From: Puniceicoccales bacterium
GTDB lineage: Bacteria > Verrucomicrobiota > Verrucomicrobiia > Opitutales > UBA953
Direction: 5' to 3'
DNA length: 64,000 nt
NCBI GenBank assembly: GCA_031256995.1
Contig: JAIRPL010000037.1
Span: 1-64,000 of the forward strand
In this document: piece after piece, positions 3,600-50,586 of the stretch
Numbering within the stretch: position 1 is the stretch's first letter
Layout of the letters: every line of letters starts with the position of its first letter
Made by a program: the position numbers and the translations under genes
Notes under the pieces: generated by a model
The model's input: only the letters and a program-made list of their open reading frames with translations
What the model was told of the DNA's origin: nothing
Databases searched by the model: none

Positions 3600-5032
3600 G
3601 CCCCGGCTTCCGCGTCGGCGTCGAGGTGTTTGCGCCAGCGCGCCAGCTGGCCGGCGGTTTGCCGGGGGCCGGGCATCCCGGTCCTTTCGCGCGCGCGCAT
3701 GGCGGTCCCCAGGTCAAAGACGTCCACCCAGTCCGCGTCAAAATGCCCGTCCACGGCGCGCACCTGCTCCAGGGAAAGCTTGTCGAGCGGCACGCCCTGC
3801 TTTTCCGACAGGGCGACGAGTGTGCCGATGACGTGGTGGGCGGCGCGGAACGGCACCCCCTTGCGCACGAGGTAGTCGGCCAGATCCGTCGCGAGCAGCA
3901 GCGGGTCGGCCACGGCCCCGGCGCATCGCGCGGGGTTGAAGCGCATGCCGCGCAGGGTCTCGCGGAGCACCTCGAGGCTGAGCAGGACGGTGTCAAAGGA
4001 GTCGAAAACCGGCGGCTTGTCCTCCTGCAGGTCGCGGTTGTAGGTCAGGGGCAGGCCCTTTGTGAGCGTGAGCAGGGTGTGCAGGTTCCCCTGGAGGCGG
4101 GCGCTTTTGCCGCGCAGCAGCTCCAGCGAGTCAGGGTTCTTCTTCTGGGGCATCAGGCTGGAGCCTGTCGTGAAGGCCTCCGTCATGACCGCGAACCCGA
4201 ACTCGGCGCTGCTCCACAAAATCAGGTCCTCGGCGACGCGCGAGAAATGCACCCCGCACAGCGCGCAGTGGGATGCGAATTCGACGAACAGGTCGCGGTC
4301 GGCCACGGCGTCCATGCTGTTTCCCGTCACGCGCGGCCTTCCGGCGGCGTCCGTGAAGCCGAGGAGGCTGGCGGCAAACTCGCGGTCGATGGGCAGCGTC
4401 GTCCCGGCGATGGCCCCGGAGCCGAGCGGGCAGACGTTGGCGCGCTTGGCAAACTCCCCGAAGCGCTCGAGGTCGCGCGCGAACATCTCGACGTAGGCGA
4501 GCAGGTGGTGGGCGGCGGAGACGGGCTGCGCGCGCTGCAGGTGTGTGTAGCCGGGGATGAGCACCGCCTGGGCGCCCTCGGCAAGGTCGAGCAGCACCCC
4601 AACCAGGGCGCGCAGGGCGGCGCGCACGCGCCCGGCGGCGTCCTTGAGAAACAGGCGCATGTCGGTCGCGACCTGGTCGTTGCGGCTTCGCGCGGTGTGG
4701 AGCTTGGCGGCGGCGGGGACGCGCGCGGTGAGCGCCTGCTCGATGTTCATGTGCACGTCCTCCAGCGCGGTCCTCCATTCAAAACGGCCGGCGTTGATCT
4801 CGGCGAGGATCTGGTCAAGGCCGGCGTGGATGGCGTCGCGCTCGCCGGTGGAAAGCATGCCGCAGCGGGCGAGCATGGCGGCGTGGGCCTTGCTGCCCGC
4901 GATGTCGAACGGGGCCAGGCGCGCGTCAAATGAGACCGACTCGCTGAAGCGCAGCATGAGGGCGCTTGGACCCTCGGCGAAACGCCCGCCGTAGGTGGCT
5001 TGCACGACTTTCCCGGTGTTGGAGGAGCTCAT
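3596..5032 (-). CDS. argH: argininosuccinate lyase
   Basis: A 478-residue fumarase/aspartase-superfamily enzyme that splits argininosuccinate into arginine and fumarate in the last step of arginine synthesis. The signature [12 protein letters not shown] is at about residues 290-301, with the catalytic serine loop at S291/S292. The conserved EDVHMNIE (H94), HTARSRNDQ (112-120) and [10 protein letters not shown] (161-170) blocks are intact, and the length is normal for the family. The start was set at the ATG at 5032 (MSSSNTGK), because the 16 upstream codons of the open frame have no family counterpart. No other arg gene is nearby. It lies 75 bases after the efflux lipoprotein gene and overlaps the TPR gene start. 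Confidence 0.95.
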
Positions 5033-5106
5033 CTTTGCGGCCCGCGAGGAAAGGGCGCCCCGCCTGTTTGGCAAAGACAAACCCGGCGTTCCTCCGGGGG
5101 CGCGTC

Positions 5107-6609
5107 CTACGGGGCGGGGCGCGGTTCCTCCATCCCCGTGCCGGACGGCCCTGGCGCGGCATCCCAGCCGCCCCCGATGGCCTTCACAAGGAGGACGCTG
5201 GTGGAAAGCTGCTGGCCCCGGACGCGCGCGGCGTCGCGCTTGATGGAGATCGCCCGGCGCTCGGCGACCGTGACATCCATGTAGCTCACCGAGCCGCCCT
5301 TGTAGCGTTTGTTGACGAGCGCCGCGGCGCGGTCCCCGGCGGCGACGGCGCGCTCGAGCTTCTCGCCGCGCTCGGACAGCAGGCGAAGGTCCCCGAGGCA
5401 GGTTTCGACCTCCTTGAATGCGTTGAGGATGTTCTGGCGGTAGGCGGCCGTGGCGGCGCGCACGCGGGCCTCGGCCCTCCGGAGGTTCTGCTCGTTGCGC
5501 CCGCCCTCGAAAACCGGGAGCGAGATGCTTGGCGCAAGCGCCCAGAAACGGCTGTCCCAGTCGAGCGTCGTGGCAAAGTCCGTGCTGGCGAAACCGAGTT
5601 TCCCGAAGAGGGTGACGGCCGGGTAGAAGGCGGCCCTGGCGACACCGATCTCGGCGGTGAGCGCGTGGAGCTCGCGCTCGGAGGCGGCGATGTCCGGGCG
5701 GCGCTCAAGCAGCTCGGAGGGCAGCCCGACGGGGATCTCCGGGGGGCGCAGCCGCGCGGCGGCGGGGTCGGGGGCGATCCCAAAACCGGACGGGTTTTTC
5801 CCGCACAGCGCGGCGATCTCGAGCAGGACCCCGGCGCGCTGGCGCTCGATCTCGTGCAGGTCGCCCTCCGCGGCGTGCACCTCCGTCTCGGCCAGCGAAA
5901 GGTCGAGGCCGTCATCGGCGCCCAGCGCCTTGCGGCGCCTCACGATCTCAAGGGATTTGTGCTGGCTTTGCAGGTAGAGGCTCACGAGCTCGCGCTCGTC
6001 GTCGAGCGCGCGGAGGTTGAAGTAGGCGCGCGCCACGGTGGTCTGGAGCGAGAGCAGCGCGTTGTTGAAGTCGGCGGCGGCGGCGTTGGCGCGCTCCCCG
6101 GCGGCCTCCTTGGAGCGGCGCACGCGCCCCCAGAGGTCGAGTTCGTAGCGAAGGTCCACGCCAAGCGAGTAGCTGTCATTGGTGTAACCGGGTGTGCCGG
6201 CGCGGCGGTTTGCCTCGGAGCGCGCCCGCCCGGCCCCGGCCTCGGCGCCGATCTCCGGCCAGAGGGCGGCCCGCTCCATCCCCGCGAGCGCGCGGGCCTC
6301 GTCCAGGCGGGCGAGGGCCGTGTGCAGCGAGGGCGTCCCCGCGCCGTCGCGCAGGTCCGAGGCGGTGGTGAGCAGGCCGTCCAGGACGGGGTCCCCGTAG
6401 GCGGCCCACCATCTTCCCCTGGGGAGGTGGTCCCGCGGCGTGGCGGATTTCCACGGGCCGGGGCTGGCGTAGGCGTCGGGAACCGCCCCGGCCGGCTCCG
6501 GGCGCTGGTAGTCCGGCCCGATCGGCGAGCATGCCCCCGCCAGCAAAAGCAGCGGAATGGCGAGCGCGGGGGGCACTGGAATGTGGTTTCGCGGGCTGGA
6601 AGGAGGCAT
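5107..6609 (-). CDS. TolC/OprM-type outer-membrane efflux lipoprotein
   Basis: A 500-residue member of the NodT/OprM group of outer-membrane efflux factors. The N-terminus is a lipoprotein signal with lipobox LAGAC (Cys27), followed by [10 protein letters not shown], the classic start of the mature OprM-type protein. Two repeated OEP halves follow, each with long helices and the characteristic [17 protein letters not shown] and NQ/R-rich turns ([15 protein letters not shown]). It forms the periplasmic tunnel and outer-membrane channel of RND or MFP-ABC pumps. No membrane-fusion or pump gene lies next to it, so the partner is encoded elsewhere. The start at 6609 is the ATG that gives the signal peptide; the remaining upstream open frame crosses the divergent promoter region. 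Confidence 0.9.
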
Positions 6610-6757
6610 GTGCGGAAGACGCTCCCCTGGAGCGACAATTTCGTGACACGGGAGATTCGCCCTTGTTGCAAGGCCGCGGGCGCGCCGCCGGGTTTCCGGC
6701 CCGCCCGGACGGGGCGCGGGTGTTGAACAAAGCCGCCGCCATGCTGTCTTTTGCGGC

Positions 6758-9700
6758 ATGCGAATCCACCCCATGTCTTCCCGTGTTTCCAGGGTCGCGG
6801 GCATGTGCTTTGCGTCCGCCGTCCTCGCGGTGGCCGCCGTGTTTGTCTCCACCCCGGCCCCGGGCGCCGCCGGCTACGACAACGGATCGGTGCCTGTGAA
6901 CACCACCGCGTCCGCCCGCCGCCTCATCAACGACCTTCTCGCCACGCATGGCGAGGCCGGTTACCCGCGCGGGCGCGAGTTCCTGGCCCGTCTGGAGGTT
7001 TTGGAAAAGGCGCCGGTGCCGGATGATTCCGCCCTTGGGACCCTCATCCGGGAGGCGGCGCTGGCCAATCCCGCGCTGGATTTTGACAAAATCCTGTTTG
7101 TCCGCCGTTCCGTGCGCTCGGGGACGGGGTTCATGATCCTCAATTCCCATTGTGAGGACGACATCCGCCGCGGCGGCTGGGACAACGAGTTGATGCTCCT
7201 TTCGGACCTGCGCGCGCCCAGCCCGAAGCTTGCCTCCGTTTACCGCCCTCCCAACGGGGGGATCATCCGCGACCTTGACTTGCATTTCGACGCCGGGCGC
7301 CTGCTCTTTGCCGCCACAAACGCGAACAGCGCGGGCGACTGGGCCGTTTTTGAGAAATCCCTCGGGGACCCGGCCCTGCCGGCGCGCCGGCTCACCCCCG
7401 GCGACCAGCCCGGGATCCAGTGGTTTGACCCGTGCTACCTTCCCGAGGAGGGCGCCGTGCTGGCGTTTTCCACGGCGGGCGTCCAGGGCGTGCCCTGCGA
7501 GAATGGCCGTGAAAAATCCGCCAGCCTGTACCGCATTGACGGCGTCGGCACCGGCGGGCCGGCCTCCCCCCGGACGGATTACCGCGTCCGCCAGCTCACG
7601 TTTGAGCAGGACAGCGGCTGGCACCCGCGCCCGCTGCCCGACGGGCGCGTGTCCTACCTGCGGTGGCAATACACCGATTCGCCGCACTATTTTGACCGCA
7701 TCCTCTTCACGATGCTGCCCGACGGGCGCCAGCAAAAGGCGCTCTGGGGCAGCGGCGCGTATTTTCCCACGGCCTTCAAGCAGGCGCGTCCCGTTCCGGG
7801 CCACCCCAGCCTGATTCTTGGCGTCGCGGCCAGCCACCACGGCGTGGCCGAGTCCGGGCGCCTCCTGCTTGTGGACCCCAACCGCGGCACCCATTACCCG
7901 TTCCGCCACACCCCCGGATCCAAGGAGTGGGGACCCGAGGGCGGCGAGCTTGAGATCCCGGCGCACACCTACCCGGCCGACGTCACCGGTTGCGTGCAGG
8001 AGATCCCCGGCTGGGGGCGCGATGTGGTCGGCAACGTCAAGGACGAGCAGGGGGGCGGGCAGCGCTACACCTTCGCCTTTCCATATCCCCTCAACGAGAA
8101 ATACCACCTTGTGAGCATGCGCGAGCGGGGGAAGGACGCCTTCTCGCTCTACCTCGTGGACTGCTTTGACAATTTTGTGAAGATCCTCGAGCTGCCCGGC
8201 GAGCATTGCTTCGAGCCTGTGCCCGTCATCCCGCGCAAGCGCCCGCCCGTCATCCCGGACATGATCGCGCCGCGCGTCGCCCCCGGCGAGACCCCGCCCC
8301 CGGGGGCCATGCTTGTCTCCAACGTCTACGAGGGGCGCGGGCTGCCCGGGATCCCGCGCGGCGTGGCCAAGTCACTGCGTGTCATCGCCTACCACTTTGC
8401 GTATTGGAAGCGCGGCGGCCACCTCTCCGTCGGCGAGCATTCCGCGTGGGACGTGAAGCGCGTCCTTGGGACCGTGCCCATCGAGGAGGATGGCTCGGCC
8501 TTTTTTGAGATTCCCAGCAACACGCCCGTCGCCTTGCAGGTTCTGGATGCGGATGGCGCGGCCATCCAGCTCATGCAAAGCTGGACGATCGCCATGCCGG
8601 GCGAGACCGTCTCCTGCGCCGGCTGCCACGAGAACTCCAATGTCGCCATGCCGCCGCGGCGCACCATCGCCGCCATGCGCCCGCCGCGCCCGCTCACGCC
8701 CTTTCACGGCCCGCCCCGCCCCTTTGGTTTCCAGACGGAGATCCAGCCGATACTCGACCGCAATTGCCGCTCCTGCCACCACTCCGAGGCGGCCCGCGCC
8801 CTGCGCCTGCCGGACTTCACCCCGCCCCCGGCGGGGAAGGGCCTCGTGCTTTGGCGGAACAATCCGTCCTACCTCGCCCTCAATCCCTATGTCTACCGCC
8901 CAGGCCCCGAGGCTTTCATCGAGACGAATGTGCCGATGGAATTCCACGCCGGGAACAGCGAGCTGATCCAGCGCCTCCGGCGGGGCCACCACGGCGTCGA
9001 GAAACGCCTGACACGCGCCGACTGGGAGCGCCTTTACGCGTGGGTGGACCTCAACGCGCCGCACCAGGGGGGGTGGGGAGCCCCGGATTTTGAGAAACTG
9101 CGCTTGCGGCTCCAGAAAGCCTACCAGGGCAGCCCCTCCAACCCCGAGGCCGACATCCGCGCCGGGTGGGAGGCCCTCCGGGAGAAGCCGGCCCCGCTGG
9201 CGAAGAAGATGCCTGTGGAAAAAATCCGCCGCCTGCTGAGCAAGGCGCACCTGGCCGACCTCAAGGCCTTCCCGCCCGCGCCCGCCGCCGCGAAAAAGGG
9301 CGCCCCCCCGGCGCCCGTCCCGCCGCCGGCCCCGGTGCCGCCCGGCGCGGCCGCCCCGAAGGCCCCTGCGGCCTTTGTCGAGCCGGCCTCGCCGGACGCC
9401 CCCGGCGCGCTGCGCGTCCTGCGCCTGCCCGATGGCTCCTCCCTGCGTTTCCGCCGCGTCCCCGCCGGCGTCACGGTCATCGGCAACGACGACGGTTTCC
9501 CGGATGAGCGCCCCGCCGCGCGCGTGCGCATCGCCAAGGGTTACTGGCTCGCCGAGACGGAGATCACAAACGCCCAGTACGCCCTTTTTGACCCCGACCA
9601 TGACACCGGCTACAACGTCGAGACGGGCAAGGACCACGTGACACCCGGCCACATCGCCAACCACCCCGACCAGCCTGTCGCCCGCGTGAGCTGGCACCGG

Positions 9701-10252
9701 GCCGTGGATTACTGCCGCTGGCTTTCCCGGTCCACAGGCGTGCCCGGGATCGGCCTCCCGACCGAGGCCCAGTGGGAGCATGCCGCCCGGGCCGGCACCA
9801 CGTCCCACTTCTTTTTTGGCGCGCGCCATGCCGATTTCTCCCCCTATGCCAACCTGGCCGACGCCGGCCTGCGCCGCACCAACCGCGGTTTTCCGGGCGG
9901 CTCGAAGCTTGCCATCCGCCAGAACTTCCCGGCCGGGTATGCCTTTCCGCTTCGCGACAACCGCTATGAGGACAAGTGGTTCACCGTGGATTACGTGAAA
10001 CAATACGCCCCCAACCCCTGGGGGCTTTACGACATGATCGGCAATGTCGCCGAGTGGACGCGCTCGGCCTACGTCCCGTACCCGTATCGCGACGATGACG
10101 GGCGCAATGCCCCCGGGCAGGACAGGCCGCGTGTTGTCCGTGGCGGCGCGCATGACACGCGCCCCGCGGCCACAGGATCGTCCGTGCGCATTCCGTTCCT
10201 GCCCTACCAGCGCCCCCACAATGTCGGTTTCCGCCCCGTCATAGAGGAATGA
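6758..10252 (+). CDS. secreted dihaem-c protein (hydrazine-synthase-alpha-like) fused to FGE-fold domain
   Basis: A 1164-residue exported protein. Residues 1-36 form a signal peptide; the first ATG is used, but M6 at 6773 is an equal alternative. Residues about 110-560 look like a beta-propeller of the kind found in hydrazine-synthase alpha-related proteins (blocks such as SGWHPRPLPDGRVSYLRW). Two c-type haem motifs follow: C620-A-G-C623-H624 and C670-R-S-C673-H674. A Pro/Ala-rich linker (about 835-880) leads to a C-terminal FGE-sulfatase/SUMF1 domain (about 890-1164) with LPTEAQWEHAARAG, GLYDMIGNVAEWTRS and RVVRGGAH. The two cysteines that form the formylglycine enzyme's active site are absent (RGGAHDTRPAATGSSVR), so sulfatase activation is unlikely. 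A periplasmic redox or sensing role is inferred. Such fusions occur in Planctomycetes and Verrucomicrobia; the true reaction is unknown. Confidence 0.85.
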   Translation: MRIHPMSSRVSRVAGMCFASAVLAVAAVFVSTPAPGAAGYDNGSVPVNTTASARRLINDLLATHGEAGYPRGREFLARLEVLEKAPVPDDSALGTLIREAALANPALDFDKILFVRRSVRSGTGFMILNSHCEDDIRRGGWDNELMLLSDLRAPSPKLASVYRPPNGGIIRDLDLHFDAGRLLFAATNANSAGDWAVFEKSLGDPALPARRLTPGDQPGIQWFDPCYLPEEGAVLAFSTAGVQGVPCENGREKSASLYRIDGVGTGGPASPRTDYRVRQLTFEQDSGWHPRPLPDGRVSYLRWQYTDSPHYFDRILFTMLPDGRQQKALWGSGAYFPTAFKQARPVPGHPSLILGVAASHHGVAESGRLLLVDPNRGTHYPFRHTPGSKEWGPEGGELEIPAHTYPADVTGCVQEIPGWGRDVVGNVKDEQGGGQRYTFAFPYPLNEKYHLVSMRERGKDAFSLYLVDCFDNFVKILELPGEHCFEPVPVIPRKRPPVIPDMIAPRVAPGETPPPGAMLVSNVYEGRGLPGIPRGVAKSLRVIAYHFAYWKRGGHLSVGEHSAWDVKRVLGTVPIEEDGSAFFEIPSNTPVALQVLDADGAAIQLMQSWTIAMPGETVSCAGCHENSNVAMPPRRTIAAMRPPRPLTPFHGPPRPFGFQTEIQPILDRNCRSCHHSEAARALRLPDFTPPPAGKGLVLWRNNPSYLALNPYVYRPGPEAFIETNVPMEFHAGNSELIQRLRRGHHGVEKRLTRADWERLYAWVDLNAPHQGGWGAPDFEKLRLRLQKAYQGSPSNPEADIRAGWEALREKPAPLAKKMPVEKIRRLLSKAHLADLKAFPPAPAAAKKGAPPAPVPPPAPVPPGAAAPKAPAAFVEPASPDAPGALRVLRLPDGSSLRFRRVPAGVTVIGNDDGFPDERPAARVRIAKGYWLAETEITNAQYALFDPDHDTGYNVETGKDHVTPGHIANHPDQPVARVSWHRAVDYCRWLSRSTGVPGIGLPTEAQWEHAARAGTTSHFFFGARHADFSPYANLADAGLRRTNRGFPGGSKLAIRQNFPAGYAFPLRDNRYEDKWFTVDYVKQYAPNPWGLYDMIGNVAEWTRSAYVPYPYRDDDGRNAPGQDRPRVVRGGAHDTRPAATGSSVRIPFLPYQRPHNVGFRPVIEE

Positions 10253-10660
10253 CGGCGGGGCGGGCGGGGCCTGGCCCGCGCCCTCCATCAGGGTGCGCGC
10301 GCGGGCCGGGGCCTCGTGTTTTTGCTTGCGCGTGCCCGCCTTTTGGGAAGGGTTCGCCCCCTTGATGAACACGTTGAGATTCCGCCCGTCCAGGCTTCGT
10401 CGCCGGCTCCCCTTCGGGGGGTGACTTTTTGTGCCGGCCCGCCGCGCGCTGGCTGTTCATGCGCGGTGTCCTGTGAAAAACAGTCCTCCGCGTCCGCCGT
10501 TTGCGCGGCGCCCCCGCCCGGGCCGGTTTTCGGGTGGCTTTGCCGCCGGGCGTCCCGGCCGGTTTGGGGCGCGGAATGCGCGCGGCGCGGCGGAGGCCGG
10601 GGAAAGCATGCCGCGCATGCCCCGAAGACAACCATCCCACCTCCAAACACATCCTTTTTC
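10253..10660. other. intergenic leader region before leuA
   Basis: No gene is recognised in these 408 bases. The leuA frame stays open upstream to about 10316, but that part (Ala/Arg/Pro-rich) does not resemble any LeuA N-terminus. A GC-rich hairpin at 10407-10421 is annotated separately. The long leader leaves room for attenuation of leuA, but I see no leucine-rich leader peptide or T-box. Confidence 0.5.
10407..10430 (+). terminator. possible terminator or attenuator hairpin
   Basis: CCCC and GGGG arms pair around a TTCG tetraloop (10409-10420), followed by GTGACTTTTT. The stem is short and the T-run starts five bases later, so it is only a weak intrinsic-terminator candidate. It would either end the upstream haem-protein transcript or act in the leuA leader. 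Confidence 0.3.
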
Positions 10661-12349
10661 ATGCAGCACGCACCCATCACAAAATACCACCCGCAGGCCG
10701 GGATCGAGCTGGCCGGGCGGCGCTGGCCCTCGCGCACGATCACCCTCGCGCCCGCTTGGTGCAGTGTGGACCTGCGGGACGGCAACCAGGCGCTCGCCAT
10801 CCCGATGAATGTCCCCGAGAAAATCGAGATGTTCAACCTGCTCGTCCGCGTGGGCTTCAAGGAGATCGAGATCGGCTTTCCCTCCGCCAGCGACACCGAG
10901 TTCGCCTTCTGCCGCGAGCTTGTCGCGAGGCGCCTCGTGCCGGACGACGTCACCGTGCAGGTGCTTGTGCAATGCCGCGAGCACCTCATCCGCCGCACTT
11001 TTGACGCCCTTGAGGGGTTTCCGCGCGCCATTGTGCACATCTACAACTCCACCTCCCCGCTCCAGCGGCGCGTCACGTTTGGCGGCGCGACACGGGCGGG
11101 GATCAAGCAGATCGCCGTCGAGGGCGCGCGCCTGGTGAAGGCGGCGGCGGGGCGTTTCCCGGGGCTTCGCCTCGAGTACTCCCCGGAAAGTTTCTCGGAC
11201 ACCGAGCCGGATTTCGCCCTCGAGGTCTGCGAGGCTGTGGGCGACGTGTGGCAGCCGACGCGCGAGGCTCCGATCATTTTCAATCTCCCGGAGACGGTCC
11301 AGTGGGCCATGCCCAACCACTATGCCGACCGCATCGAGTGGTTTGTCCGCCACCTTGCCAGCCCCGAGACCGCCATCGTCTCGCTGCACACGCACAACGA
11401 CCGGGGCACCGGCACGGCCGCCACCGAGCTTGGCCTTCTGGCCGGGGCGACCCGCGTGGAGGGCACCCTCTTCGGCAATGGCGAGCGCACGGGGAACCTG
11501 GACATCGTGAACCTCGCGCTGAACCTCTATTCCAACGGCGTGGACCCTGGGCTGGATTTTTCAGACCTTCCCTCCGTTCGCGCCATTTACGAGCGCTGCA
11601 CCCGGATGAGCGTCCATGAGCGCCACCCTTACGCGGGTGACCTGGTCTTCACCGCCTTTTCCGGCTCCCATCAGGACGCCATCAAGAAGGGCATGGACTT
11701 GCGCGCGGGCCTTCCCAAGGACGCCCCGTGGGCCGTCCCGTACCTGACCATCGACCCGCGCGACATCGGCACGGACTACGAGGCCGTCATCCGCATCAAT
11801 TCCCAAAGCGGCAAGGGCGGCGTCGCCTACATCCTCGCCCGCGACCACAGCCTCAACCTCCCCAAGGAGATGCACCCGCAGGTCGGCGCCACCATCAACT
11901 CCATCGCCGACGCCGCGCAGCGCGACCTCTCACCGGCGGAGATTTACGAGAATTTCCATAAAAACTATGTCAACCTCGACGCCCCCCTGGACGTCTCCCA
12001 CATCGAGCACAATATCGTCGGCGCCGACCCCGGGAGCGGCGCCGAGATCATCCATCTGCGCGCCGAGATGCGCATGGATGGCGGGACCGGGATCCTGGAG
12101 GGGGACGGCAACGGCCCGTTGAACGCCCTGGTCAACGCCCTGGAGAGGCGCGGACTGAAGGATTTCTCGCTTGTGAAATACGAGTCGCACTCCTTCGGCG
12201 CCACGTCCGCCGCCAGCGCCGCCGCCTATGTGTGCCTTCGACGCGCCCGCGACGGCGCCCTGTTCTGGGGGTGCGGCCTGCACACGAGCATTGAGACCGC
12301 AGGCATCCGCGCCCTCGTCAGCGCCTACAACCGCGCGGCGAGCCTTTGA
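10661..12349 (+). CDS. leuA: 2-isopropylmalate synthase (long, type 2)
   Basis: A 562-residue enzyme that condenses acetyl-CoA with 2-oxoisovalerate in the first step of leucine synthesis. The N-terminal TIM barrel has the family start WCSVDLRDGNQAL (about residues 31-43), metal-binding SLHTHNDRGTG and GNGERTGN; the C-terminal third carries the LeuA regulatory domain. The architecture matches the actinobacterial/fungal type rather than the short E. coli type. The start is the ATG at 10661 (MQHAPITKYHPQ); the preceding frame is open but lacks homology. It is transcribed toward lysA, with 98 bases between the two stops. No other leu gene is adjacent. Leucine feedback is expected from the family. 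Confidence 0.95.
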   Translation: MQHAPITKYHPQAGIELAGRRWPSRTITLAPAWCSVDLRDGNQALAIPMNVPEKIEMFNLLVRVGFKEIEIGFPSASDTEFAFCRELVARRLVPDDVTVQVLVQCREHLIRRTFDALEGFPRAIVHIYNSTSPLQRRVTFGGATRAGIKQIAVEGARLVKAAAGRFPGLRLEYSPESFSDTEPDFALEVCEAVGDVWQPTREAPIIFNLPETVQWAMPNHYADRIEWFVRHLASPETAIVSLHTHNDRGTGTAATELGLLAGATRVEGTLFGNGERTGNLDIVNLALNLYSNGVDPGLDFSDLPSVRAIYERCTRMSVHERHPYAGDLVFTAFSGSHQDAIKKGMDLRAGLPKDAPWAVPYLTIDPRDIGTDYEAVIRINSQSGKGGVAYILARDHSLNLPKEMHPQVGATINSIADAAQRDLSPAEIYENFHKNYVNLDAPLDVSHIEHNIVGADPGSGAEIIHLRAEMRMDGGTGILEGDGNGPLNALVNALERRGLKDFSLVKYESHSFGATSAASAAAYVCLRRARDGALFWGCGLHTSIETAGIRALVSAYNRAASL

Positions 12350-12387
12350 GGAAACGGGGGGGTGCGCGGCGCCCTCTCCCGCGCTTT

Positions 12388-12404
12388 TCCACGTCTTGCG
12401 TGGA
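12388..12404. terminator. possible bidirectional terminator hairpin
   Basis: A perfect 6-base inverted repeat (TCCACG and CGTGGA) with a 5-base loop lies between the convergent leuA and lysA stops. It has TTTT on its left side, which would serve the minus strand poorly, and no clear T-run on the right, so the call rests mainly on position. Confidence 0.3.
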
Positions 12405-12447
12405 GGCCTTCGCGCCCTCCGCCGCGCCTGTCATGCCGCCGCGCCTG

Positions 12448-13761
12448 TCATGCCAGCGGGATTTCGTTCTGGATCATCTGCTCCAGCGTCTGGCGGCGCC
12501 GGATGAGGCGCGGCGTGTTTCCGGGGTCGAGGAGTATCTCCGGGGCCTCGGGGAAGCTGTTGTAATTTTTCGCGCTCATGGCCGAGCAATAGGCGCCCGC
12601 GCCGCCGATGAGGCACAGGTCGCCCATCCTCACGGCGGGAAGGCGCACGGGGGCGAGCCTTTCCGGCTCCCCGGGGGCGCAGGAGATGAGGTCGCCCGAC
12701 TCGCAGCAGTGGCCGGCGAGGATGTAGTCATGCACGGCGGATCCGGGGGCGCGGCCGGCGTCCGCCGGGACGATCTCCGCCGGGTGCTGGGCGCCGTAAA
12801 GACCGGGGCGGAGAAGCTCCGTCATCCCCGTGTCGAGTTTCAGGAAACGGCGCCCGGCCTCCCCGGTGTCGGTGATGTCCTGCACGCGGGCGAGCAGCAC
12901 GCCGCAGTTGGCCGTCAGGAAGGTTCCGGGTTCGATCTCAAGGTGGAGTCTGCGGCCGGTGCGCGCGGCGAAATCCTCGAATGCGGCCTTCACGGGCGCG
13001 CCGGCGGCCTGCAAATCGGCGTCCTTCTCGCCGGGGACGCGGGCGACCTTGAATCCGCCGCCGAGGTTGAGCGTTCGCGCGTCCGGGAAGCGGTCCATCA
13101 GGGCGAGGTTGAGCGTGGAGACTTCCTGCCACACGGCGGGGTCGCTGCCGGAGCCGATGTGGGTGTGGACGCGCACGATGTTGAGCCGGTGGCGGCGCGC
13201 GGTTTCCAGGATCTCCGCGATGTGCTCGTGCCAGATGCCGAACGAGGCGTCCGGCCCGCCCACATTGGTCTTCCCCGTGCCCCCGGATCCGCGCCCGGGG
13301 TTGATCCGCACGCCGATGTTCCAGCCGGGAAGGGCCGTGCCGATGGCGTCCAGCTGCGCGAGCGAGCAGGCGTTGACGAGGACGCCCGCGCGGAGCAGCG
13401 GGGTGAGGTCGGCGGGAAGCTCCTGGGTGGAGAGGGAGATCTTTTGCGGGGCGATGCCGGCAAACATGGCCCGGCGGACCTCGTGCCCCGAGCTGGCGTC
13501 AAAGTGCAGGCCCTTGCGCTCGAAAAGGCGCAGCACGGTGGCGTTGGGCAGCGCCTTCATCGCGAAACGAACGGTCAGCCCGTGGGCGTTTGGAAAGGCG
13601 AGCGCCTCGGCCGCCCGGTCCTCAAGCGCCTGCTGCGAGTAGACGTAGGCGGGTGTTCCGTGGGCGGCGGCGATGCGCCGGGCGATGTCTTCCGGGACGG
13701 TGTTCGTGGGCCGGAACCTTCCGGCGTTTCCGGAAACAGGGACGGTGGTGGAGGCAGGCAT
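12448..13761 (-). CDS. lysA: diaminopimelate decarboxylase
   Basis: A 437-residue PLP enzyme of the alanine-racemase-fold decarboxylases that converts meso-diaminopimelate to lysine. The PLP lysine is K69 in RFAMKALPN; HTHIGSGSDP and the phosphate-binding LNLGGGFKVAR follow, and the active-site cysteine lies in AGHCCESGD. CESGD is typical of LysA rather than of ornithine or carboxynorspermidine decarboxylases. The start at 13761 (MPASTTVP) fits the family length; the open frame continues upstream into the divergent PLD gene without homology. A direct repeat of GCGCCTGTCATGCC spans the stop codon (about 12424-12454). No dap genes are adjacent. Confidence 0.93.
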   Translation of the reverse strand: MPASTTVPVSGNAGRFRPTNTVPEDIARRIAAAHGTPAYVYSQQALEDRAAEALAFPNAHGLTVRFAMKALPNATVLRLFERKGLHFDASSGHEVRRAMFAGIAPQKISLSTQELPADLTPLLRAGVLVNACSLAQLDAIGTALPGWNIGVRINPGRGSGGTGKTNVGGPDASFGIWHEHIAEILETARRHRLNIVRVHTHIGSGSDPAVWQEVSTLNLALMDRFPDARTLNLGGGFKVARVPGEKDADLQAAGAPVKAAFEDFAARTGRRLHLEIEPGTFLTANCGVLLARVQDITDTGEAGRRFLKLDTGMTELLRPGLYGAQHPAEIVPADAGRAPGSAVHDYILAGHCCESGDLISCAPGEPERLAPVRLPAVRMGDLCLIGGAGAYCSAMSAKNYNSFPEAPEILLDPGNTPRLIRRRQTLEQMIQNEIPLA

Positions 13762-17183: not shown

Positions 17184-17954
17184 CGCGGCCCGCGAACGCA
17201 CCCGCATATTGAAAAAATTTCCGGCATAAAACGCCCCATCATTGTGGACACGCCAAGCCCACCCAAAACCTTGCGCGCAATCCCAAATTGAAATGCGAAA
17301 TAAATGCGAAATAAAACAGGGAAAGAGACAAAACAGAGAAATCGCCACGCACGCCCCGCCCCGCGCCTCTTTCTCTCTTTCTTTCTCTCTCCCGCTCCCC
17401 CCGCCCCCCCGTGCGCGCGGGTGTGCCATCCGGCCGCTTCCGGTGGCCTCCGTTGTGTCCCGGTCTTTCCGAAGCGTCTTGTGCCGCCGCGTCCCAAGGT
17501 TGTTTTTGGCGGCGGCGGGGAACGGGTGTTTCCCGGTTTTCCTCGCATTTTTCCCTTGTCACGCAATCGCTTGGCGCCGACGATCGCGCGGTGTGGCTGG
17601 GGTTGTCGGGCTGGATTCCGCCCGGTCTCCCTTGGCCGTCGTTCTTATTTCCTCGTTACTGTCTTTTGTTCTTCGTTCCCGTTTTGTGTTCCCGTTCTGC
17701 GCTCCGTGGGCGTGCGCGCCATCCCGTGTTGTGCGCGCCGTTCCGGGGTGAATTTTCTCTCCAAAAAAAACTGAAAGCTCGTTCCCAAGTTCGTTCCAAA
17801 ACCCGTTCCCCTTGAAAAATCCGGGACTGTCTTCGTTCCCCGTTCATCTCTCGTTCATTCCGGGCGTTTTGCCCTGTGTTTTCCGCCCCGCCTGACGGCC
17901 CGCCGCTGGTGGCGTCCGTTTGGAGCGGCCTCACCTTTGCACCCTTTTGCTGCC

Positions 17955-20900
17955 ATGCCTATCCCCAAACCTGCCTTTCTGTTTGCGCAACCTGCCCGTC
18001 CGGGGCGCACTCCCCGCGCCTTGTTGTCGCGCGCGGCCCTTTTTGCCGCCACCGCGCTGGGGGCCTCCGCTGTCTTCTCCCCGGCCCTTGCCCCGCAGGC
18101 CCTTGCCGCGACGGTCGGGCAGCTTACCGGTTCCGCAAGCCGGGTGATCGCCGCGAGCGACGTGCTTGAGGTCACCGGGGCCACGCATTTCCGAAGCTCC
18201 GGCGCGGGCTACACCAGCGCCGCCTACGCGGGCGACATCTACAGCGGCGTGCTTTCCGGCACGGGCGCCTTTGTCCTCTCCGACGGCACTTTGCGTCTTG
18301 ATGCCAAGCAGACCTTTTCCGGCGGCATCACCGTCACAGGCGCGGACTCGGTGCTCATTTTCAACACCCAAAAGGACGCCTTCAACAACGTCGCCGGCAA
18401 CGCCATCCGCGTCCTCGACGGCGGCACCCTCGTCTTTGGGAAGAACGACACGACGAACAGTTACCCCGCCATGCCGATTTATCTCTACGGGGCTTCGGAC
18501 ACCGTCCGCTCCTCCCTCGAGAATTCCTACCAATACAACAAACTCGGCGCGCTCTTCATGAAGAATGGCGACTTGGTCATCGCCGCGAACGGTTATTCGG
18601 ATGCGAAATGGCGCAGCTACAGCCTGAACGGGGTCGTGACCGTCCAGGCCGAGCCGGATGCCACCGCCGAGAATCCCACCGTTTCCCGCATCTACACCAA
18701 GGAGGGGGTGCTCGACCCCAACATCCACCTCGGCGCCAACAGCCACGGCACCACCACCACCTTCATGGTCGAGGCCAACGCCCTCCTCGACGTCTCCTCC
18801 ATCCTCGTGAATCGCGCCGACAACCTGGCGGCCTCGAATCTGACCAAGGAGGGGGCCGGCAAGATGCTTATCACCGGCCTCAACACCTACACAGGCACCA
18901 CCATCGTCTCCGGGGGCATCCTCCAGGTCGGCGACGCCTCCAACCCGGACCCCGCCGCGCGGGTGGATGCCGGAAGCATCAGCACCACCTCCGGGGTCAC
19001 CATCGCGGCGGGGGCCGTCGTGCGTTTTGACATCGGCACGGCAAGCCCGCTTCACAACTCGACCTTTGGGAAGTCAATCTCCGGCGCCGGCGTGTTCCAG
19101 AAAGACGGGCCGGGCAAACTCACGATCGCGGTACAAAATCTCCCGCCCATCTTCGACGTCCTCGGCGGGCACCTCGCCCTGACAGGCACGGACAAGACCA
19201 CCGTGCGCACAATCTCCGTCATGGGCACCGCGGAGGTCCCGGCCACGCTCGAATTTGTCGGCACCAAGATCCTTGGTGGAAACCACTGGATGCTTAGTAG
19301 CTCCGAATCTGAACCCAACCTGGCGAACACCAAGCTCTATCTTGGGCCTTACGCGACACTTCTTTTCGCCACCGGGAAAACGAACGAGCAGGCCATCCCC
19401 TACATCTGGATGCGCGGGGGGACGATCGCGGTGAACAATGGAGGCAGTTCCTCCTCCGGATTTGAGGCCGCGACGGTGCCCCCCGTCGTCGTGGTGGAAC
19501 GCCCCGCCGGCGCGACGGGGACCGATGTCTGGACCTCCTACATCATTGACGGAAACACGACCAACCAATCCGCCGTTCACCCCTACCGCAACGGCACGAC
19601 GTTCCAAGTCGCGGAAAACGCCGCGTTGAGCGTGCAGGCCAACCTGATCCTCGGCAGCAACAATACCCAGACCACGGGGATCACCAAGACCGGGGCCGGC
19701 ACCCTCATCCTCTCCGGGGCAAACGGCTGGGGCAACCTCTACAAGGGCGGGACGACGATCAACGCCGGGACGGTCGAGCTGGATTACACGCGGGCAGGCT
19801 CGCCCGCGACAAACATCATCGCGACCGGGACGCCGCTCACGCTCTCCGGCGGCAGCCTGGTGGTCAAGGGGAAGGCCGGGCAAAACGGCATCGTGGAGAC
19901 CTTCAGCGGCACCACCTCCACCGCCCAGACCAACTCCACCATCCGCATCGAAAAGGGCGCCGCCACGGCCATCACCCTCGCGCTGGGCACCCTCGCCGTC
20001 AACGGCGCGCTGCGCCTCGAGGGGGCCGACCTCCCGCGCTACAACTCCGGCTACACTATCGGCACCACAAACTACACGACCACGACGTCGGCGGGCGCGA
20101 ATGACGGCGCGACCCGCCTCAAGGGCGTCGTGCTCGGCGGGGCGTGGGCCTCCACCCTCGCCTCCGGCGCGCCATCCGGCTCCTACTACATCGTCCCGCT
20201 GTCGAGCACGACGAGGATCTCGGTCCACCAGGGGATGCTCGTGCACAGCACCGGCGCGTCCACCGACCGCTCGTACGAGATCTACGATGGCGGCGGGACA
20301 CCCGGCGCGGTGACCATAAGCGCGGGGGCTGAGACTACGATCGAGTCCCTCCTCTTCTCCGCCACCACGGCCGGCACCATCAACAACACCTCCTGCATCC
20401 GCGTCACCTCCGGGGAGATTGTCAAAACAGCCGACTCGGCCATGCTCACAATCGGGCTTGCTCCGGGGGACGGCTCCACCAACAAGATTGTGCCGGAGCG
20501 GGGCAACGTCGCCGGCACCGTGAAGCTTGTGAACAACGCCACCGACCCGGACTCGCTCCTCGTCGTCAATTCCGCCATCAGCAATCCGGGGTCCAACCCG
20601 GCTTCGCTCAGTGTCAGCGGCACGGCCCCGGTCGTGCTCGCAGGGAAGAATGACTTCAAAGGCTCGTTGACCATCCTCGGCCCGGCCCCGGTCATAATCA
20701 AAGGGGACAATGGCGGCCACACTAGCAGCACCGCCGCCAGTTTTACCGGCCCGGTGACAATCGCCCCTGGGGCGACACTCCGGTTCTCCAACGTTCCAGG
20801 ACAGACTGTTCAATGCTACTACAATACTTTCGCGATCGGCGCGGGAGGCACGCTGCAGGTGGATACGGATGCGGTGACTTATTTTCTTCAAGGAGCCATT

Positions 20901-34629: not shown

Positions 34630-34765
34630 CGGTGCTGGCTTTGGTGCTGGTTTTAGCCGTTTTGGCTTTGGCGGCCTTGGCCGTTTTGGCGGCGTTAGCC
34701 TCGGCTGTTTTGGCAGCCTCGGCTTTGCTGGCCTTGGCCGTTTTGGCGGTGGTTTTGGCGTTTTC
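34630..34765. repeat. GCCAAAACGGCC-type imperfect tandem repeat
   Basis: On the minus strand, units built from GCCAAAAC, GGCCAAGGC and GGCTGCC repeat about every 12-18 bases. The tract spans the end of the PEP-CTERM gene, so the last 20 or so codons of that protein, beyond the basic PEP-CTERM end, are encoded by repeat DNA. Confidence 0.65.
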
Positions 34766-47733: not shown

Positions 47734-48933
47734 TCATGCCTTGAAGGCGTCGAGTTCGATCTCGAAAAGCAGGTCGCCCCGGCAGATGTCGCCGTGCGCG
47801 AATATGGCCGGGATGGGGGGCAGGTTGAGGGAGGCGCGGCATGGCTCGAAGCGTTTCATCCATGCGGGGGAGGGGAAATAGAGGATGGCGCGCGCGGTGT
47901 CCTCCCAGCGCATTCCGCGCGATTCGAGGATGGCGCCGACGACGCGCAGGGAGAGTTTTATTTGCGCGTCCAGGTCGCCGGTGTGCGCGGTCCTGCCCTC
48001 GGGTTCGATGCTGGCGGTGCCGGAGATGAAGAGGTGGCGCCCGTCCTGGCCGGAGATTTCCACGGCGCGGCTGAAGGCGCTTTTGTAGTCGTTGGCCGGG
48101 CATTGCAGGGGGGAGGGCACGGCCTTGATCTCCAGCGTGGCGCCCTGCTTGGGGGCCACGGCCATTGCGTCGAGCATGAGCGCCGCGCCTTGGGGGTTGG
48201 CCGCCCCGATCCCGGTGCTGGCGGGCACGAGTTTGCCGAAAATGGCATTTTCGTTGAAAAATGCCGTGCGGACGCGGTTGAAATCGTCGTACCAGTCAAG
48301 AATGCGGTCGTTGTAGAACCACGTGCGGACGACGTCGGTGATGTTGAAGCGGGCGTCGGCGAGCAATTTTTTGAGTTCTTTCCAGAGGGCGGCGGATTGC
48401 GCGCCGGGCGTGGCGGAGGTGTCTCCGGGGGCTAGTGCCGCAAGCAGGATGCAGCGGGCGTCGCTGGTTTCCCAGGCGACCCCCGCCTGGGTGCCGTTGC
48501 CGGATTGGACGCGCCGGAAGGTTCCGGAGGGCAGGGCGGTGATGCGCGCGCCGCGCAAGTCTCCCTCCGGGGTGTCGTGGCGGGCGAGGAAGGCGGCGGG
48601 GAAGGGCAGTGGCTCGCCCAGGGTTTTTGCCAGGGCGGGGTCTCCAAACACAGTGCCCTGGGCGGCATCAAGATTCCGGCGCCGCATTTCCCGCAGGATC
48701 CGGTTGAGCAGGCCCGTGAGGTTCTCGCCCGGGAGGATGTTGGAGGAGAGGGAGACCAGGCCGCAGCCCATTGGTGCCACAAACACACCCTCCGCGGTTG
48801 TTTCGGAAAGTGGTTTCCGGGTGCCGATGGCGGTGTGCCGCCCTTGGGAGGGGGGGGCGGTGGGATCTCCGCCTTCCGCTGTCTGGTGGGGGGGTGGGGT
48901 GTCTTGTTGTCCAATAAGGTTTTCGTTCAGCAT
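47734..48933 (-). CDS. chorismatase-like / RidA-fold protein
   Basis: A 399-residue protein related to the FkbO/Hyg5/XanB2 chorismatases, which are built from YjgF/RidA-type folds and hydrolyse chorismate. The visible hallmarks are FNENAIFGKLVPASTGIGA and LFISGTASIEPEGRTAHTGD followed by a Q-x-K helix, matching the family's GTASI...H.GD block. The first 60 residues are Pro/Gly-rich with no similarity; here the DNA has runs of eight and seven G. The start is the ATG at 48933 (MLNENLIGQQ). If active it would make a hydroxybenzoate from chorismate, for example toward a quinone or pigment, but no partner genes are nearby. A plain RidA-family role is the alternative. Confidence 0.65.
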   Translation of the reverse strand: MLNENLIGQQDTPPPHQTAEGGDPTAPPSQGRHTAIGTRKPLSETTAEGVFVAPMGCGLVSLSSNILPGENLTGLLNRILREMRRRNLDAAQGTVFGDPALAKTLGEPLPFPAAFLARHDTPEGDLRGARITALPSGTFRRVQSGNGTQAGVAWETSDARCILLAALAPGDTSATPGAQSAALWKELKKLLADARFNITDVVRTWFYNDRILDWYDDFNRVRTAFFNENAIFGKLVPASTGIGAANPQGAALMLDAMAVAPKQGATLEIKAVPSPLQCPANDYKSAFSRAVEISGQDGRHLFISGTASIEPEGRTAHTGDLDAQIKLSLRVVGAILESRGMRWEDTARAILYFPSPAWMKRFEPCRASLNLPPIPAIFAHGDICRGDLLFEIELDAFKA

Positions 48934-49155
48934 TATGGCATGCCAAGACAATGCGGGGGCTGTTTTGTTGCACCGGCGGCGGCCGGGTGCGGGGTTGTGT
49001 CCGGCTTTTTTGCTCCATTTTCCGCATTCCCGCCTGCACTTTGTCCCGACAATTCTGTTGCCGGGACGCACCTCCGCTGCCATACGTGGCCCCATGCGGG
49101 GGATTCCGCAGAAACTGGAACTGCCCGTGTTCTTCCCAGAAAACGCATTTTTGCA

Positions 49156-50586
49156 ATGACACCGCCAAACCCGCCGCCCTCCTTGCCCGAAACGCCTGCC
49201 GACCCCGCTGGTGCGCCGGGCTTTGCCGTCGATCCGCAGAATGGTGCCTCTTATGCGCAATTTTCCAATGCCGCCGGTGGCTCCGCGTATGCGCAGGGCG
49301 AGTTCCCCGCTTCCCACGGGGGTGTCGTGCCCGAGCTGGCTTGCGACCCCGCCATGGACCCCGCGCTGCTTGCCGAAAACCTCAGTCCGTTCAAGCGTTT
49401 CTGGCGAAAATACGGCGGGGACAGTTTTTTGATCTCAGTCGGCGTCCACATCGTCCTTGCCATCATTGCCGTCACCTGGGTTGTGTCGGTTGTCGTCATC
49501 AATGACAAGAAGGACAACAAGATCGACACCGGGGCCGGCGGTGGCAACAACGGCGACCGGGTGACCATGTCGGAGCATCGCGTCAAACCCAAGAATGCCC
49601 GCAACATGGCGCGCTCGAGCATGAAGCTGATGAGCAAGAGCAGCACGTCGTCCGTCTCGCTTCCGGAGATGCCGAGCCTGAGCATGGCCTCCTTGGATAG
49701 TGGCGCGATCGCCGGTGCCTCGTCGGCGGGGTTTGGCACTGGGGCTGGCGGGGGTGATGGACCCGGTATTGGGCCAGGGAAGGGTGGTGGCCGAAACATG
49801 GTTTCCTTCTTTGGCGTGGATGGTTTTGGCGCGGCGGGCATTGTGGGCACGCTTTATGACATCAAGCGCACGCCCAAGGGCGAACCCACCGCAGCCGCCG
49901 GGTCCGTCCCCAACTATCTGGCCGTGGCCCGCAAGTTCGTGAACAGTGGCTGGAATGAGGCGGTGCTGAGGGGGAACTACTGGGAGTCCCCGACAAAACT
50001 TTCGCTGCAGCAAGTGCTTGTGCCTCTCATGTCCGCCGAGGCGGCCCCCAAGTCATTCAAGGCCGATGGCATGGCCGGGAAGCGTTGGATTGCCCACTAC
50101 AAGGGCAGCGTTGTCGCGCCGTTCAGTGGTAAAATGCGTTTTGTGGGCATGGCGGATGACTGGATCACGGTGCGTTGGGGCAAGAAAAACTTGCTTGTCG
50201 CGGGCTATCCTGCGTCGCACACGGGCAGTTATGTCTCGGGCACCCCGAGAAAGGGCGCAAAACCGCCCGCGATGCCCGATGGCGTGGGTGACAGTTTTCC
50301 ATACGGCTTCCGCCGGCCCAATTTTCAGACGGGTCCGTGGTTCAATGTCTCGAAGGGGTCCACCTACGAGATTGAGATCGCGATAGGCGAGACGCCAGGG
50401 GGGGAGTTTTGCGCGACGCTTGCCTTCCAGATGGGGGTTCGCGACGCGAAGCTTCTCCTTTTCCGCATGAGCAACGACCCGCTTCCCGAGGGCGTGGAAA
50501 AGGCCGCGATTCCGGCGAACGTCGACCTCACCGGCGGCGGCTTCGTCTGGAAGCCGGTCATGAAGAACTCGCGCCCTTTGCGTTAG
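49156..50586 (+). CDS. single-pass membrane protein with C-terminal PA14-like domain
   Basis: A 476-residue protein with a cytoplasmic Pro/Ala-rich N-terminus (1-78), one membrane helix at about residues 91-115 (FLISVGVHIVLAIIAVTWVV), a basic then Gly/Ser-rich linker (GAGGGDGPGIGPGKGG) and a C-terminal beta-rich domain (about 290-470) with KRWIAHYKGSVVAPFSGKMR and DDWITVRWG, resembling PA14-type carbohydrate-binding folds. The topology resembles TonB-like or anchored envelope proteins common in Verrucomicrobia. The start is the ATG at 49156; the open frame extends upstream over the divergent promoter without similarity. It is divergent from the chorismatase-like gene (222 bases) and lies 97 bases before rnc. 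Function unknown. Confidence 0.7.
   Translation: MTPPNPPPSLPETPADPAGAPGFAVDPQNGASYAQFSNAAGGSAYAQGEFPASHGGVVPELACDPAMDPALLAENLSPFKRFWRKYGGDSFLISVGVHIVLAIIAVTWVVSVVVINDKKDNKIDTGAGGGNNGDRVTMSEHRVKPKNARNMARSSMKLMSKSSTSSVSLPEMPSLSMASLDSGAIAGASSAGFGTGAGGGDGPGIGPGKGGGRNMVSFFGVDGFGAAGIVGTLYDIKRTPKGEPTAAAGSVPNYLAVARKFVNSGWNEAVLRGNYWESPTKLSLQQVLVPLMSAEAAPKSFKADGMAGKRWIAHYKGSVVAPFSGKMRFVGMADDWITVRWGKKNLLVAGYPASHTGSYVSGTPRKGAKPPAMPDGVGDSFPYGFRRPNFQTGPWFNVSKGSTYEIEIAIGETPGGEFCATLAFQMGVRDAKLLLFRMSNDPLPEGVEKAAIPANVDLTGGGFVWKPVMKNSRPLR

Follow-up and report, generated by a model that had tools for sequence, protein, structure and literature searches.

The analyzed window comprises positions 1–64,000 of contig JAIRPL010000037.1 from a Puniceicoccales metagenome-assembled genome (MAG; GCA_031256995.1). 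On its forward strand, an open reading frame (ORF; 6758–10252 bp) encodes a protein of 1164 aa, in which a dihaem region similar to the alpha subunit of hydrazine synthase (HZS) is fused to a domain of the formylglycine-generating enzyme (FGE) type. The comparisons given below suggest that this gene probably encodes the alpha-type subunit of a multihaem HZS-like complex located in the periplasm or outer envelope, whose chemistry is other than hydrazine synthesis. The proposed complex is widespread among relatives within Planctomycetota and Verrucomicrobiota and is also present in some Bacteroidota.

Domain Organization and Predicted Fold

A Pfam search assigned the middle part of the protein to the HZS_alpha family (PF18582, residues 535–625; E = 1.2e-29, 103.1 bits against a gathering score of 26.6) and its C-terminal part to the FGE-sulfatase family (PF03781, residues 901–1161; E = 3.2e-37, 129 bits against 23.3). 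An AlphaFold model was built from 40 sequences (pLDDT 82.5, pTM 0.83), and the top solved match for its residues 108–775 was HZS alpha, aligned over nearly its whole length (5c2v_A; Z 31.2, 565 aligned residues, rmsd 3.1, 21% identity). Foldseek comparison of the model with 5c2v_A gave E = 1.7e-23, and profile–profile alignment with six true HZS alpha sequences gave E = 1.8e-24 across 638 columns. The propeller taken alone matched TolB (Z about 24), and the last quarter of the model matched PvdO (Z 27.4), PorK (Z 24.2) and FGE (Z about 23).

These results bear out the preliminary description of the gene with respect to the HZS-alpha-like propeller region and both family assignments, which exceed their gathering scores. 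The protein, which had been described as secreted, is probably exported, judging from a signal peptide recognized by eye. The window genome encodes a fused CcsBA, so c haem can be attached, and both CxxCH motifs of the fused protein are predicted to bind it. A scan of positions 5000–12500 against Rfam gave no match.

Conserved Residues and the FGE-like Domain

Conservation was evaluated in 83 full-length relatives, limited to ORFs whose match to the query began no later than residue 150 and extended to at least residue 1150; two genes were counted twice in this set (L108 is the same gene as L054, and L120 the same as L047). Both CxxCH haem motifs, on which the preliminary description relied, were invariant (83/83), as were Cys247, His310, Arg314, His360, His361 and His744. 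The Cys247 motif was found mainly in the fused subfamily and additionally in L083, L091 and L093, and the GHH motif of the fused subfamily occurs in several others as well.

Haem I is in register with that of true HZS alpha (sequences from six anammox genomes). The position of HZS Tyr591, four residues past CxxCH, is occupied by Asn628 in the window protein; Tyr was found in this column in one of the 83 relatives and within +1 to +5 in two of them, against 6/6 in true HZS alpha. The loop aligned with the zinc-site Cys303 lies near Gly331–Ser332 and contains no cysteine, the alignment being loose there; according to the main text of PMC12758564, Cys303 is absent in Scalindua too. Cys247 was considered as a counterpart of Cys303 and rejected, since the alignments put the two on different strands. 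His744 aligns in the region of HZS His772, with an offset by one possible.

In the FGE-like domain, both cysteines of the catalytic pair were found in none of the 83 proteins, and the second column alone contained cysteine in five. These columns were placed by the motif RGGSxxCxxxxC, which we take to be that of the FGE active site. The claim that the domain lacks the active-site cysteines thus holds, as regards the pair, for all 83 proteins, and the domain is probably a non-catalytic docking or ligand-binding module. An FGE-type enzyme of sulfatase maturation with incidental haem would agree with a PF03781 score far above the gathering value. Nevertheless, the absence of the cysteine pair and the sulfatase counts led us to reject it as hardly credible: among relatives G000–G056, HZS_alpha-positive genomes contained 0–3 sulfatases each, many HZS_alpha-negative ones contained at least 20, and in G008 and G052, which have the fused gene, no sulfatase hit was obtained at 1e-8.

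Distribution of HZS_alpha and the FGE Fusion

The window MAG (2.43 Mb, 89.6% complete) contains six HZS_alpha matches, one of them partial. Its close relatives are Puniceicoccales MAGs, presumably of termite-gut source to judge from the isolate names. Seven of nine genomes of the genus carry 3–18 HZS_alpha copies and two carry none; in Verrucomicrobiota, the domain was found in 34 of 145 genomes. The FGE-fused form is one subfamily: besides the window protein, it has six members in the set of ORFs from 78 hits in relatives.

Scanning named genomes yielded 579 candidate relatives; the best 79 loci were retained, and a full-length fused ORF was present in 75 of them. The FGE-fused members belong to Planctomycetota, Verrucomicrobiota, Kiritimatiellia, Lentisphaerae, Hydrogenedentes, Acidobacteria (Bryobacterales) and Bacteroidota. 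Pairwise identities in the HZS part correlate with those in the FGE part (r 0.82 over 81 proteins, the duplicates L108 and L120 being left out), which is what an old fusion would give. The FGE–HZS_alpha fusion is an old, conserved architecture and not a peculiarity of the window genome. A conserved operon around the closest homologues was sought and rejected, as no family occurred in more than four of 75 adjacent same-strand genes; neighbors conserved in relatives, which the preliminary description proposed to look for, are represented by the beta-gamma gene of Akkermansia and other clades described below.

HZS_alpha paralogues are also fused to other modules, namely laminin-G, NPCBM and HEAT. 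FGE-like proteins that stand alone, in some cases with a DO-GTPase1 or DUF4062 domain, were observed beside HZS_alpha paralogues in the genus (L092:1-5434, L105:608-2410, L071:3827-7321, L074, L090). A Thermoguttaceae MAG contains two tandem fused copies of 1084 aa each (L158:8786-15821), and the second alpha copy of Bacteroides nordii is broken up, alpha and FGE each having a frame of its own (L206:4944-7300).

Beta-Gamma Partner Gene

In the type-strain genome of Akkermansia muciniphila, which carries a single copy each of FGE-alpha and its partner gene, the FGE-fused gene is followed about 15 bp later by a gene encoding a protein with a propeller and a CCP_MauG domain. A profile of 24 such proteins matched 5c2v_B with E = 5.8e-47 and 5c2v_C with E = 2.2e-37, and the HZS beta and gamma matches ranked above every cytochrome c peroxidase or MauG. 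Therefore, the partner was identified as the fused HZS beta-gamma protein known from non-anammox bacteria (PMC12758564). The spacing between the two genes was 1–15 bp in four Akkermansia genomes and 149 bp in G573. FGE-alpha was also located near beta-gamma in another member of Akkermansiaceae, Phycisphaerae, Hydrogenedentes (where three genes overlap by one base), G571, Victivallis, B. nordii (L183 and L249 being one locus), Carboxylicivirga and Bryobacterales, the last locus being cut by a contig end. In the verrucomicrobial genome G558, a single ORF of 3111 aa combines HZS_alpha, FGE, PKD repeats and a CCP_MauG/beta-gamma part.

Among 57 relatives, strong beta-gamma hits were found in 7/8 HZS_alpha-positive genomes against 1/49 negative ones, two further negatives giving weak, partial hits. 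In a second genome set, which included five genomes from one genus and positives chosen for carrying alpha, beta-gamma was present in 25/25 HZS_alpha-positive and 1/10 negative genomes; owing to this composition, the p-values for co-occurrence are overstated. The divergence of alpha and beta-gamma over 10 loci correlated with r 0.91 (0/5000 permutations; r 0.78 without two Akkermansia). The preliminary statement that the organism shows no anammox genes is valid for hydrazine synthase itself; HZS-like beta-gamma homologues are carried by most HZS_alpha-positive relatives, the window MAG being an exception. The activity or sensor function assigned there to one protein is better read as that of a subunit of an HZS-like alpha and beta-gamma complex.

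The HZS gamma Cys165/Asp168 loop, which belongs to the third haem, is deleted in the 24-sequence profile alignment. C396 of beta-gamma is invariant (24/24). A cysteine seven residues ahead of the first beta-gamma haem cysteine was observed in all 24 proteins (L198:6983-8845 and relatives) and might substitute for the thioether of the third haem in HZS gamma. The beta-gamma structure predicted from one sequence had a pLDDT of 35.4 and was not used.

The question of a true hydrazine synthase in a cryptic anammox-like metabolism arises from the homology to HZS alpha and beta-gamma. Nevertheless, with the NF052339 model of true HZS alpha, whose cut-off of 800 bits was reached by 27 of 392 Planctomycetota genomes, the window protein scored 39.9 bits. 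The loss of Tyr591 from all but one of the relatives, the region of Cys303, which aligns loosely, and the deletion of the gamma loop also argue against hydrazine. With ligands specific to HZS gone, hydrazine is not the expected product, and hydrazine synthesis was rejected as extremely improbable on the NF052339 score and these ligands, in agreement with the initial view of the substrate.

ResB is encoded close to the alpha/beta-gamma cluster in G066, G571 and G540, and was not found in two of 12 HZS_alpha-positive genomes (G058 and G573). As a co-occurrence profile, cytochrome c maturation proved weak and was set aside: CcsA was found in 51/57 and ResB in 41/57 relatives regardless of HZS_alpha.

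Chorismatase-like Gene

A third gene, encoding a chorismatase-like protein, was found in 12 of 27 beta-gamma loci (two of the 27 being the same B. nordii locus). It is located directly downstream of beta-gamma in Akkermansia, B. nordii, Carboxylicivirga, G571, Victivallis, Hydrogenedentes, G469 and G574. The window contains one such gene, which falls into one subfamily with the genes linked to beta-gamma in L248, L250, L252, L254 and L255 (E 1e-71 to 1e-79); it lies about 37 kb from the FGE-alpha gene, beside genes for an ABC ATPase and an arginine decarboxylase. The TIGR04444 search gave hits in 27/28 HZS_alpha-positive and 8/18 negative genomes, and six of these eight negatives had strong hits (>145 bits), like ordinary chorismatases. 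In the window's genus, the gene was present in all seven HZS_alpha-positive genomes and in neither of the two negative ones.

The chorismatase-like gene favors an aromatic substrate. Its product might make a hydroxybenzoate or a dihydroxy-cyclohexadiene acid from chorismate in the cytoplasm, and the HZS-like complex would oxidize this compound outside. The position immediately after beta-gamma in taxa ranging from Bacteroidota to Hydrogenedentes, the presence of the gene in the window and its distribution in the genus are consistent with this, as is the match of the Carboxylicivirga copy to TIGR04444 (1.7e-37). Against it, the TIGR04444 cut-off of 325 bits was reached in none of 46 genomes (the window gene scored 49 bits), and genes for pigments or polyketides were not recognized next to the chorismatase-like gene. 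We regard a chorismate-derived substrate as unlikely.

Three further observations concern this gene. One B. nordii copy is interrupted by stops (L249:5467-6626). In A. muciniphila, a second chorismatase-like match and a second ResB match are about 4 kb apart (G569:C1:2339931-2345109), and in G548 the beta-gamma and chorismatase-like genes lie within about 8 kb (G548:C1:1896507-1904766).

Proposed Mechanism and Alternative Explanations

By homology to HZS, two haem sites would be located in separate subunits, between which either an intermediate diffuses or electrons are transferred. On the HZS pattern, beta-gamma with its two haems may perform one redox step or pass on electrons. Haem I of alpha, placed under the propeller face with Cys247, His310 and His360–His361, would form the catalytic site of the second step, and haem II would serve as a relay. 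The FGE-like domain would most likely dock a partner or bind a ligand, perhaps a glycan or an aromatic compound. Where many alpha paralogues share one or a few beta-gamma units, alpha would set the specificity. In the window organism, the beta-gamma partner may have been lost or may be missing from the assembly.

Several results weigh against such a complex. HZS alpha-Tyr591 and gamma-Cys165 are lost, and the genomes behind the co-occurrence counts are not independent, several having been picked for alpha. No beta-gamma hit was obtained at E 1e-8 in the window genome, which is 89.6% complete. Beta-gamma was present in the fetched stretch of only three of the 75 close-relative loci with the full fusion, and in the inspected loci of the window's genus it does not lie beside FGE-fused alpha. 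G548 carries beta-gamma and the chorismatase-like gene without HZS_alpha. Finally, alpha can greatly outnumber beta-gamma: the ratio is at least 31 to 1 in G574, and 121 HZS_alpha matches stand against 7 beta-gamma matches in G058, a 6.2-Mb Phycisphaerae MAG (the record of L127). Such lopsided copy numbers are odd for a fixed complex and leave room for alpha-like proteins being clients of beta-gamma.

MauG is known to mature pre-methylamine dehydrogenase. By analogy, a MauG-like beta-gamma protein might oxidatively mature or cross-link many exported cytochromes of the HZS-alpha fold, whose FGE, laminin-G, NPCBM and HEAT modules would be the business ends. The genomes contain 1–11 beta-gamma matches (some being pieces of one gene) against 1–121 alpha matches, the partner carries a CCP_MauG domain and the fusion partners of alpha vary, all of which would suit this explanation. 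On the other side, alpha retains both haem sites and the HZS-like domain order, beta-gamma is nearer to HZS beta and gamma than to MauG, and one natural fusion of alpha with beta-gamma exists. A client role of alpha therefore has a low probability in our view.

The carbohydrate-type modules on paralogues and the sugar genes beside some copies favor an organic substrate. In a periplasmic sugar breakdown, alpha would oxidize a sugar or glycoside, a small gluconolactonase-like propeller would hydrolyze the lactone, and FGE and the other modules would bind glycans. This agrees with the laminin-G and NPCBM fusions and with the genes that immediately precede FGE-alpha in L142 and L147, which encode an SDR, a NupG-type transporter, an FGGY kinase and an SGL propeller. 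Moreover, DhaK, DhaL and an LsrF-like aldolase accompany FGE-alpha in B. nordii, and a DUF5703/GH95-like gene lies 38 bp upstream of L055, the closest homologue among the best loci kept. However, no family accounts for more than four of the 75 adjacent same-strand genes, and the low sulfatase numbers in HZS_alpha-positive relatives show no sulfatase link; we find sugar breakdown distinctly unlikely.

Taken together, the system of FGE-alpha, beta-gamma and the chorismatase-like protein may represent new multihaem chemistry on organic substrates in A. muciniphila, B. nordii and bacteria of the Planctomycetota–Verrucomicrobiota–Chlamydiota (PVC) group. It would represent the non-anammox lineage that gave rise to hydrazine synthase, and in expanded genomes many alpha subunits would share a few beta-gamma units. 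We advance this broader proposal tentatively, as plausible rather than probable.

Novelty and Significance

For a long time hydrazine synthase was regarded as exclusive to anammox bacteria, and there is continuing debate on how it originated. Pairs of HZS-like alpha and beta-gamma outside anammox bacteria are already in print in the main text of PMC12758564. In the literature searches, no account was found of the fusion with FGE, of the clusters in Akkermansia and Bacteroides, of the natural three-part fusion or of the chorismatase-like neighbor. A full-text literature search revealed no paper joining formylglycine-generating enzyme with hydrazine synthase, or chorismatase with Akkermansia; for A. 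muciniphila together with hydrazine synthase, the sole match was, to judge from its listing, a ruminant feed study. If the HZS-like complex is confirmed, the presence of FGE-alpha and beta-gamma in cultured gut bacteria would make ancestral hydrazine-synthase chemistry testable by deletion and purification. It would also provide a first function for a family with up to 121 copies per genome and show one purpose that the "dead" FGE fold, which is very common, can serve.

Features of the Window

The features of the FGE-alpha gene and the position of the chorismatase-like gene are given in Table 1. Among other genes of the window, an ORF of 5287 aa full of passenger-like repeats (17937-33800, forward strand) is apparently a giant autotransporter, and a smaller apparent autotransporter with a weak PATR hit is located at 34698-38219 on the reverse strand. 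The reverse strand also encodes a DUF4011/AAA helicase/MTES_1575 nuclease protein of 1885 aa (38962-44616), a type that we assume to be frequent in defence islands.

Table 1. Location of the FGE-alpha gene, its domains and candidate functional residues, and of the chorismatase-like gene in the window.
Feature	Position	Strand	Basis
FGE-fused HZS-alpha-like dihaem protein gene	6758..10252	+	ORF translation, Pfam, structure match
Probable signal peptide, residues 1-38	6758..6871	+	Judged by eye; pLDDT <50 at 1-21, 25-38
Beta-propeller, residues about 108-500	7079..8257	+	Strands of model; HZS alpha and TolB matches
Cys247 (QG-x-PC), candidate pocket residue	7496..7498	+	Invariant in 83/83 fused members
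His310, candidate pocket residue	7685..7687	+	Invariant, 83/83
His360-His361 (GHH), candidate pocket residues	7835..7840	+	Invariant, 83/83
HZS_alpha middle domain PF18582, residues 535-625	8360..8632	+	Pfam
Haem motif I CAGCH, C620-H624, equivalent of HZS haem alpha-I	8615..8629	+	Alignments
Haem motif II CRSCH, C670-H674, equivalent of HZS haem alpha-II	8765..8779	+	Alignments
His744, candidate distal ligand of haem II (HZS His772 region)	8987..8989	+	Invariant
Pro/Ala-rich linker, residues about 831-884	9248..9409	+	Sequence; low pLDDT at 831-873
FGE/SUMF1-like domain PF03781, residues 901-1161, no catalytic Cys pair	9458..10240	+	Pfam, structure match
Chorismatase-like (FkbO/Hyg5, Rid fold) gene, up to 527 aa, start probably internal	47734..49317	-	Profile search

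Comparison with Known Systems

The third gene shares the Rid/chorismatase domains with the chorismatases FkbO, Hyg5 and XanB2 and differs from them in remaining below the TIGR04444 cut-off everywhere tested. The C-terminal dihaem domain of the partner matches CCP_MauG, as in MauG and bacterial dihaem cytochrome c peroxidase, whereas HZS gamma fits it better. The C-terminal domain of the fused protein has the fold of FGE/SUMF1, PvdO and GldK/PorK; in contrast to FGE, it does not contain the copper cysteine pair and is non-catalytic like GldK/PorK, whose role is structural.

The main text of PMC12758564 describes co-located HZS-alpha and fused beta-gamma homologues outside anammox bacteria (clades I–IV), in which the HZS residues are not conserved; a homologue from Opitutus terrae is among them. 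Its passages on these homologues describe no FGE fusion, and this main text contains none of the words formylglycine, Akkermansia and Bacteroides. Clade I is reported in it to lack a counterpart of His772, whereas the fused family seems to keep one as His744.

The closest solved system is anammox HzsA (5C2V chain A), with which the fused protein shares the propeller, the middle domain with haem alpha-I and the C-terminal haem alpha-II, in the same order. In contrast to HzsA, it has no Tyr591 and no clear equivalent of Cys303, and its partner genes differ. At the same time, it adds the FGE domain and its own invariant Cys247, His310 and His360–His361.

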